64,000 nucleotides of DNA from Gammaproteobacteria bacterium (lineage in GTDB: Bacteria; Pseudomonadota; Gammaproteobacteria; Nitrosococcales; Methylophagaceae). The notes under the pieces were generated by a model. That model did no database searches, was not told the DNA's origin, and saw only the letters and a program-made list of their open reading frames with translations. This document shows, one piece after another, positions 55,555-57,655 of this stretch. The first letter of the stretch is position 1, and the number at the start of each line of letters is the position of its first letter. The stretch is from positions 62,001-126,000 of the forward strand of contig JAQWIT010000010.1 in NCBI GenBank assembly GCA_029248745.1, in the 5' to 3' direction. The position numbers were made by a program, and so were the translations under genes.

Positions 55555-56364
55555 TTATACAGAGATTAAGATACTACGCTGAATCCAATCATGAATTAGC
55601 ACTTTAGCACCATCATAAACCACTTCTGGGTTCGGGTGCTGTAGTTCTTGTGCAATTTGCTCTGCTGCTTGTTGCCCTGTTTGACCTTCATTGAGTAGGT
55701 CAATCAATCTTGCACTAACGGGATTTAATTCTAAGAATAAAACATCATCATTAGGATCGCGATAGACAAGTAAGAAAACGGGATTTTCACTGGCTTGTTC
55801 AGGCTGAAAATCAGTGGAAATTTGGTGCACAGGAAAGGTGTAAGACAAGGGCCAGGCTAAAGTTGATGTGTTTAAACCTATAGCGAGATAATCTTGTTCA
55901 GGATCAAAGGAAATAGTTTTAGGCTCAGCTTCGGAAATACTCAGTGCTAACTCTACCCATTCATAATGACAAAGTGCCTGAATAAAAACAGGGTCATTTC
56001 TCAAATTCCGTTCATTATCGAGATAATATAAAAACTCGTGAGCAATCTCATTAAATAGAGGAGATTTCGATTTATGCTTGATCATGAAATCTCTGACCAT
56101 CGCGTGCCAGCTTTCTTCGGGAACCAATGATTTCAGCACAGGGAAGCAGGAGGAAATAAAGCCTTCTATATTGTTGTAGAACAGATCTCGGTAGACGTTT
56201 AGACGACGTTGTTCAATGCCCGCTGGTTTGTCATTATTCTCAGGATCACGGAGATATCCCGTGAACTGGTATTGCACATCTTTGAATGTGTTTGCTTTAG
56301 GCTGAGTGTGCAAGACGATCTTGTCCTTGAGCTGTTTGGTAGTGACGAATTTTTTCGACTTCAC
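55555..56364 (-). CDS. DUF2063 (BufC/HvfC-type) partner protein of an MNIO enzyme
   Basis: The 269-residue protein has the DUF2063 N-terminal pattern: FTGYLRDP, GIEQRRLNVYRDLFYNNIEGFISSCFPVLKSLVPEESWHAMVRDF and SPLFNEIAHEFLYYL-NER. A C-terminal part resembles a winged-helix or peptide-recognition module (LIDLLNEGQTGQQAAEQIAQEL). Members bind the leader or core of small precursor peptides and present them to the DUF692 enzyme. The gene overlaps the DUF692 gene by 68 bases, an unusually long overlap that strengthens their coupling. The first 30 residues (Lys-rich) could be an over-extended start; an internal start would reduce the overlap. No signal peptide is seen. Confidence 0.87.
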   Translation of the reverse strand: MKSKKFVTTKQLKDKIVLHTQPKANTFKDVQYQFTGYLRDPENNDKPAGIEQRRLNVYRDLFYNNIEGFISSCFPVLKSLVPEESWHAMVRDFMIKHKSKSPLFNEIAHEFLYYLDNERNLRNDPVFIQALCHYEWVELALSISEAEPKTISFDPEQDYLAIGLNTSTLAWPLSYTFPVHQISTDFQPEQASENPVFLLVYRDPNDDVLFLELNPVSARLIDLLNEGQTGQQAAEQIAQELQHPNPEVVYDGAKVLIHDWIQRSILISV

Positions 56365-57148
56365 TGTTTAGAATGGCTAATGATGGAATATTAAAATCAC
56401 GCTCTAATAAAGTCGGTAGTACACCATGATGTTGGTAGGTCTTTTCTAGCAATGACCAGACAGGCTCAATAACATCACTACCATGGGTATCAACTTTTAA
56501 ATCTTCAGCTTCATTGTAATGCCCTGCAATGTGGAGATATTCGATGCGTTCAGATGGCATCGCTTTCATATAGGCTTCAGGATCGTAGTTATGATTGATG
56601 CTGTTAACATATATATTGTTAACATCTAGTAATAAGCCACAATCTGCTTCATTCAAGACGGTATTTAAAAAATCGACTTCGGCCATTTCTTGGCCTGGTG
56701 CAGCATAGTAAGAGACATTTTCGATAATCAGCGGGCGTTCTATGATTTCCTGTACGCGTTTAATGCGTTTAGCGACGTGGCTAACCGCATCAGAGGTAAA
56801 CGGGACAGGCATTAGGTCATAGAGATGGCCATCATCGCTACAATAGCTTAAGTGTTCACTGTAGGCTCTGATATTGTGTTTATCTAAGAATTTTTTAACG
56901 CGAACGAGGAAATGTTCATCGAGTGGAGCAGGGCTACCAATCGATAATGACAAACCATGGCACATCATGGGGTAGCGTTCAGTGAAGTGGGCGAATTTCT
57001 TACCTAGGTTGCCACCGATTTCCATCCAGTTTTCTGGCGCGACTTCGAGGAAGTCAAAAGGCTGGTCATCTCGTTGTGCCAACTCGTCCATAAAATCACG
57101 ACGAAGGCCGAGCCCAGCACCAGATACAGGGTAAGATTTTGTATTCAT
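56297..57148 (-). CDS. DUF692 multinuclear non-heme iron oxidative enzyme (MNIO, BufB-like)
   Basis: The 283-residue TIM barrel has the family's start GAGLGLRRDFMDEL, FDFLEVAPENWMEIGG, CHGLSLSIGSP with H64, YSEHLSYCSDDGHLYDLMPVP, LIIENVSYYAAPG, the iron ligands in CGLLLDVNNIYVNSINH and the later YLHIAGHYNE and DTHGSDVIEPVW. MNIOs use two or three irons to rewrite cysteine or other residues in ribosomal peptides (methanobactin, bufferin, TglH types). The partner DUF2063 follows downstream. A precursor of the bufA type (short ORF with signal peptide and Cys-rich core) is expected just upstream but is not present in the 162 bases before the gene; a rhodanese lies there instead. Confidence 0.92.
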   Translation of the reverse strand: MNTKSYPVSGAGLGLRRDFMDELAQRDDQPFDFLEVAPENWMEIGGNLGKKFAHFTERYPMMCHGLSLSIGSPAPLDEHFLVRVKKFLDKHNIRAYSEHLSYCSDDGHLYDLMPVPFTSDAVSHVAKRIKRVQEIIERPLIIENVSYYAAPGQEMAEVDFLNTVLNEADCGLLLDVNNIYVNSINHNYDPEAYMKAMPSERIEYLHIAGHYNEAEDLKVDTHGSDVIEPVWSLLEKTYQHHGVLPTLLERDFNIPSLAILNSEVEKIRHYQTAQGQDRLAHSA

Positions 57149-57310
57149 CGCTTATTTCCCGTTATGTCTTGTTTTCATTATGACAAGTTGTCAGGAGGAA
57201 TGTTACAAAGATTGGCAGAGTTGGTCTACCTTGGCAGTCAATGCCGGGTTTTTTTTAGCAAAGAAAACGTGTTATGGGGGACACAGCACGCTTTTTACCA
57301 GTTATGTACT

Positions 57311-57655
57311 TTAGCTTTCGCTCCAGAGATCATAACCTCCATCCATGGAAGAGACACTCATATAACCCATTTGTTCTAAGACACGTGTAGCGAGTGCTGA
57401 ACGGCCTCCACTTCTACAGTAGATGACAATGGATTTGCTTTTATCAGTGAAGGCTTCATGGCCATCAATTTTAAACTCTAAGACGCCACGCGGAATGTGG
57501 ATTGCATTCGGGATATGGCCAGCTTCAAATTCAGCAGGTTCACGGATATCAAGTGCAATGCTGCCTTCTGCAATCATTGCGTTGGCTTCATCGATATTCA
57601 CTTCTTTAATTACTTTTTTTGCTGCTTGTACTAATTCTTTTGCTGACATCGCCAT
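57311..57655 (-). CDS. Cytosolic single-domain rhodanese
   Basis: The 114-residue protein has ALDIREPAEFEAGHIPNAIHIPRG, active-site loop CRSGGRSA with catalytic C80, and MGYMSVSSMDGGYDLW. There is no signal peptide. The long N-terminal helix (SAKELVQAAKKVIKEV) resembles that of the 15.2-kb rhodanese, but the active-site loop differs. ATG 57655 has GAGAGG 7 bases upstream; ATG 57649 is an alternative. It is the first gene on the minus strand before the DUF692-DUF2063 pair, 162 bases away with no clear terminator, so it may share their transcript. It could supply or handle sulfane sulfur. Confidence 0.92.
   Translation of the reverse strand: MAMSAKELVQAAKKVIKEVNIDEANAMIAEGSIALDIREPAEFEAGHIPNAIHIPRGVLEFKIDGHEAFTDKSKSIVIYCRSGGRSALATRVLEQMGYMSVSSMDGGYDLWSES

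Follow-up and report, generated by a model that had tools for sequence, protein, structure and literature searches.

Among the closest described relatives of the system reported here is hvfABCX of Haemophilus influenzae, whose product, oxazolin, was revised to a 5-thiooxazole of the captophorin class; in the established chemistry, the thiooxazole product holds no sulfur beyond that of the cysteine. HvfBC and FonBC make the thiooxazole with a maturase and its partner protein, and the published reconstitution mentions neither a sulfurtransferase nor a rhodanese (PMC13419390, PMC13097082). In H. influenzae, RpoE2 controls the hvf DoxX/DUF692/DUF2063 operon together with msrAB (PMC7907618). In Caulobacter, the regulon of sigma-F (GTAACC-N16-CGAA) includes two DUF692-DUF2063 loci as well as DoxX and yedY (msrP), one ECF sigma factor thereby serving several unlinked loci with MNIO, partner, DoxX and MsrP genes (PMC3511200), and in S. 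meliloti TGTAAC promoters of RpoE7 lie before a DUF692-DUF2063 operon (PMC6180224). A survey (Antoine et al. 2025, PMC12452194) has already counted stand-alone Buf_EGKCG/bufferin precursors unlinked to an MNIO gene, as well as EGKCG clusters in which oxidored_molybd and ferric-reductase genes occur; its main text neither names Methylophaga nor assigns a stand-alone gene to a maturase.

We analysed a stretch of 64,000 nucleotides from a Methylophagaceae genome (hereafter, the window), in which a rhodanese gene, an MNIO gene and a DUF2063 gene follow one another on the minus strand:

57311..57655, minus strand: rhodanese, single-domain, cytosolic, 114 aa, CRSGGR active loop
57149..57310: gap of 162 bases between rhodanese and hvfB
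57182..57207, minus strand: ECF-type promoter of hvfBC, TGTAAC-N17-GTC, a motif conserved in family hvfB upstreams
56297..57148, minus strand: hvfB, MNIO (DUF692) RiPP maturase, 283 aa
55555..56364, minus strand: hvfC, DUF2063 + RRE-type partner protein, 269 aa counted from the first GTG

The preliminary description of this unit had given its coordinates and the 162-base gap exactly, and Pfam and NCBIfam searches confirmed the DUF692, DUF2063 and rhodanese assignments. The hvfB product matches PF05114 over its whole length (359 bits) and scores 447 bits against the NCBIfam equivalog NF003818 'HvfB family' (cut-off 360), with 278.5 bits against the BufB model, under the cut-off of 310. The hvfC product matches PF09836 and PF22106, that is, DUF2063 plus an RRE-type C-terminal domain, as well as NF050145 'HvfC family' (305 bits, cut-off 142). 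Judged by these curated models, the pair is an ordinary HvfB and HvfC. The HvfB blocks HGLSLS, HLS, IENVSYY (EN(V/T)SYY), DVNNIYVN, HIAGH, VDTHG and ERD align closely with the solved MNIO 3bww, and DVNN and DTH appear to be the equivalents of the essential N175, D242 and H244 (PMC13419390), an equivalence drawn at the level of motifs and not from a residue-level alignment to HvfB itself. hvfC comes directly after hvfB, with a 68-base overlap if the first GTG is used; its true start probably lies further inside. The rhodanese (PF00581, 80 bits) is an ordinary single-domain protein with an intact CRSGGR active-site loop.

No conserved precursor ORF is present in the 162-base gap. The earlier statement that neither strand holds such an ORF was right as to the precursor; it had overlooked a non-conserved plus-strand ORF of 44 aa with three Cys (57180-57314), which overlaps the rhodanese end. 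We rejected this ORF as a precursor: it is oriented away from hvfB, has no family match, and is interrupted by stops in the relatives L003, L004 and L007. Between rhodanese and hvfB, the minus strand holds a weak terminator candidate at best, a question that mattered less because a conserved hvfB promoter was found in the gap. Opposite both genes, at 57230-57248 on the plus strand, the gap also contains a good intrinsic-terminator-like hairpin with eight T.

One possibility put forward in the preliminary description, a precursor encoded elsewhere, proved correct. The window's genome (1.73 Mb, 20 contigs, 99.99% complete) contains exactly one DUF692 (MNIO) gene and, on another contig, an intact hvfA (G000:C4:7042-7380, minus strand, equal to L086:7042-7380); because the MNIO gene is single, this HvfA has no other maturase in the genome. 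The precursor search was directed at KCG-type and DUF2282 precursors, by the KCG pattern, the HvfA models and the DUF2282 model. A degenerate DNA pattern for GKCGEGKCG matched a single genomic place, four times, and this place is hvfA; the KCGEGKCG pattern finds HvfA with zero mismatches, and the HvfA models find it too. The protein has 112 aa, a signal-peptide-like start (called by eye), two KCGEGKCGEGKCG blocks and six KCG cysteines, and thus the signal peptide and repeated KCG(E/A)GKCG motifs of an HvfA. It scores 32 bits against NF050137 (cut-off 19.5) and 42 bits against the full-length equivalog NF050188, under the cut-off of 95; two HvfAs that adjoin hvfB also score under the latter cut-off.

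The search for a DUF2282/BufA match in the window's genome was negative, the same search being positive in a Caulobacter control, and there is neither a second MNIO gene nor a bufA operon elsewhere in this genome, so that the intact bufA-DUF692-DUF2063 operon considered in the preliminary description is nowhere to be found. By the DUF2282 model, the system is not a bufferin (BufABC) system. Nor does it form an hvfABCX operon with the precursor directly upstream of the MNIO gene: on its own contig, hvfA is followed by a broken hvfX (doxX) and by msrP and msrQ, both intact, and a divergent ECF sigma gene, likewise broken, lies on its other side. The likeness to H. influenzae extends to the HvfB and HvfC families by curated models, to an HvfA with a signal peptide and six KCG cysteines, to the DoxX (HvfX) gene beside hvfA, and probably to control by an ECF sigma factor (PMC7907618). 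Unlike the H. influenzae system, this one has precursor and maturase at two chromosomal places, its hvfA travels with msrP-msrQ, and hvfX is broken in this genome. As a separate observation, the HvfA spacer (VGTQSDIDGKAAEYHEKMKAL) resembles the C terminus (HPVGTQEDINALHDQYHEKMKTHQ) of a putative lipoprotein, 68 aa long, that contig C18 encodes (L161:1498-1704, minus strand), as if the repeat protein had acquired that segment.

The split between hvfA and hvfBC is general in Methylophagaceae. The closest relatives belong to this family, several of the records being labelled Methylophaga or Piscirickettsiaceae, and the family HvfBs form one clade, beside HvfBs from outside the family. MNIO is present in 51 of the 57 family genomes and an HvfA-motif match in 46 of the 57, to which protein search added two (the window's own and G026); family genomes that have HvfB nearly all have HvfA. 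Across the family, 31 hvfA loci were read and hvfB is in none of them; wherever the contig extends, hvfX and msrP come after hvfA, and the sigma gene is divergent. Where large contigs carry both halves, the distance between hvfA and hvfB is about 49 kb in G033, 50 kb in G047 and 100 kb in G038. Among the nearest HvfBs from outside the family (62-68% identical), most lie directly behind hvfA. MNIO, HvfA and MsrP are jointly absent from G003 (1.1 Mb, 100% complete), and HvfB is present with no HvfA match in G018 and G029, which are 81-84% complete and may have retained HvfB without HvfA. In about a dozen family genomes there is also a second MNIO, more distant, with 35-39% identity to the window HvfB (L087-L096, L098, L099); several of these loci have TGTAAC-N17-GTC 458-1334 bases upstream.

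Both halves share a promoter motif. When the gap was aligned across the window's clade, a conserved block was observed just before hvfB, the remainder having drifted. Of 38 distinct family loci, 37 have TGTAAC-N17-GTC 46-62 bases ahead of hvfB, against a shuffle mean of 0.019; with identical spacing, the motif also precedes hvfA in 30 of 31 genomes, against an expected 0.03. These expectations come from mononucleotide shuffles of the upstreams and, the loci being related, are not probabilities. The spacer sequences have diverged widely and both elements are fixed. The motif was found in no family locus before the rhodanese (0/27), eda (0/28), edd (0/25), the ABC permease (0/29) or DUF455 (0/23), nor before EXP (0/27), an exported-protein gene described below. 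In six whole genomes, the tighter form TGTAACAW-N15-GTC gave 2-7 matches each, with hvfB matched in all six and hvfA in all except the window's genome; in the near-complete G033 it occurs exactly twice, at hvfA and hvfB. A reversed control pattern gave 1-6 matches per genome, so single extra matches mean little, and a genome-wide search with an 18-base spacer, which acts as a control, matched neither the hvfA nor the hvfB site. The -10 element varies, being mostly GTCTATG at hvfA and mostly GTCATAAT or GTCTTA at hvfB, and at the hvfA of the window's genome it reads GTA, not GTC.

From these upstream sequences, the precursor and maturase halves look wired together by regulation, and the shared promoter is most likely read by the ECF sigma factor whose divergent gene adjoins hvfA; in the window's genome, where the motif precedes hvfB, this sigma gene is broken. 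The -35 is of the GTAAC type, as in the Caulobacter sigma-F regulon with its DUF2282-DUF692-DUF2063-DoxX operons and yedY/msrP. However, the Caulobacter -10 is CGAA after a 16-base spacer and ours is GTC after 17 bases, and each Caulobacter MNIO has its own adjacent DUF2282 precursor, whereas the system described here has a KCG-repeat HvfA. In two relatives (L175, G027:C2:24835; L182, G015:C253:437), the ECF-type motif is also present 54-71 bases ahead of a membrane-anchored protein of ~480 aa; by eye, this protein looks like a relative of FMN-binding glutamate synthase, and it is a possible third regulon member.

We interpret these observations, with a probability of roughly 87%, as a split captophorin/oxazolin-type system with promoter-paired halves, in which the rhodanese is a syntenic neighbour. 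The window holds the maturase half (hvfB-hvfC) of what would be a copper-peptide system of this type, and the precursor half (hvfA with hvfX, msrP and msrQ) lies at another chromosomal place; through the motif borne by both, envelope or metal stress would induce precursor and maturase jointly. We infer that HvfBC modifies the HvfA of this genome, acting in trans on its Lys-Cys-Gly motifs before Sec export. By analogy with HvfBC and FonBC (PMC13419390, PMC13097082), HvfC would bind the precursor, a mixed-valent diiron site in HvfB would oxidise the Cys of the KCG motifs to 5-thiooxazole, and the exported peptide would bind copper.

The neighbours of hvfB offer two other readings. The commonest order in the family is rhodanese - EXP - hvfB - hvfC, where EXP is an exported protein of ~250 aa whose start resembles a signal peptide and whose CGC motif is invariant. 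Of 31 family loci (the window and 30 fetched ones), 21 have the rhodanese linked to the hvfB locus, and its linkage to DUF692 is thus not unique to one strain. The seven members of the window's clade lack EXP through a single loss, which placed the rhodanese beside hvfB with the 162-base gap, and no match shows EXP to have moved elsewhere in the window's genome. It had been proposed that the peptide was exchanged for a persulfide step fed by the rhodanese. A rhodanese working with HvfBC, for instance by supplying or removing persulfide sulfur, and replacing or extending the usual chemistry, would fit its position directly upstream on the same strand, its retention when EXP was lost, its intact active-site loop and the precedent, cited in PMC7907618, of a complex between a mycobacterial DoxX protein and the sulfurtransferase SseA. 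Yet the gap contains a separate promoter for hvfB, of a type that the rhodanese lacks; the M. thiooxydans group, L014 and L070 retain hvfBC with the promoter but have no rhodanese at that locus, and none of the MNIO loci fetched from outside the family has one; and the HvfBC/FonBC chemistry has been described with maturase and partner only. The whole neighbourhood is moreover syntenic (DUF455, ABC permease, eda, edd), so the adjacency of rhodanese and hvfB carries little weight. Since some relatives keep promoter and hvfBC without it, a sulfurtransferase-MNIO partnership is not supported, and since hvfA lies elsewhere with the same promoter type on both halves, the rhodanese is not needed to explain the missing precursor; we regard the proposal as very unlikely. 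It is also quite unlikely that EXP was the ancestral HvfBC substrate and that HvfBC, after its loss in the window's clade, now serves HvfA alone or another protein. The signal-peptide-like start, the invariant CGC and, in most family loci, a place immediately upstream of hvfB, the usual precursor position, would agree with such a role, but EXP has no ECF promoter, the stretches read around its relatives from other gammaproteobacterial families contain no HvfB relative, hvfBC persists with no EXP beside it in L014, L070 and the window's clade, and HvfA accompanies HvfB almost throughout the family. Some family members keep EXP and lack the rhodanese, and L014 and L070 lack both at the hvfBC locus; rhodanese and EXP are optional neighbours in a wider syntenic block. 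EXP itself (L008-L028, L060 and L080 between rhodanese and hvfB; L147-L155) has no Pfam or NCBIfam match and is a candidate metal-binding protein family; its AlphaFold model (pTM 0.59) is all-beta, with Foldseek matches at TM about 0.3 and nothing specific among them.

A further reading, that hvfBC is a relic of a pathway decaying in the window's lineage and that HvfBC is no longer used, draws on the state of the hvfA locus. In the window's genome, hvfX has two in-frame stops and one frameshift (L086:6362-6960, minus strand) and the ECF sigma gene two frameshifts (L086:7430-8087, plus strand), breaks that could be partly assembly errors; in G026, both genes are gone from the hvfA locus and HvfA is reduced to three KCG motifs. 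With its broken hvfX and sigma genes and its altered hvfA -10, the window's own species may have a pathway in decay, or one that is not fully active; in this lineage, either another ECF sigma factor reads the promoters or the pathway is running down. A relic is nevertheless unlikely: hvfA, hvfB and hvfC are all intact in the window's genome and the hvfB promoter is kept, G026 keeps both the hvfA and hvfB promoters with intact hvfA, hvfB and hvfC despite its lost sigma gene, and hvfBC is kept in seven species of the window's clade. Very improbable too, in our judgement, is that the rhodanese (with EXP in relatives) acts functionally in the HvfBC pathway, in sulfur handling or the repair of modified Cys, and has survived the loss of hvfX and sigma in this lineage. 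The loss or breakage of hvfX in two members that keep HvfABC suggests that HvfX is possibly dispensable.

The split captophorin (oxazolin-type) system favoured here is of a known kind, and we consider it a modest variation on known systems; a promoter-wired split in Methylophagaceae was not found described in the literature searched. In contrast to the survey of stand-alone precursors (PMC12452194), the shared promoter proposed here links such a precursor to its maturase. A 'missing precursor' beside an MNIO gene can thus be resolved, the precursor lying elsewhere under the same ECF-type promoter, and with the motif, stand-alone EGKCG precursors can be matched directly to their maturases. For the organisms themselves, the arrangement would tie copper-peptide production to MsrP-type methionine repair across a family of marine methylotrophs.
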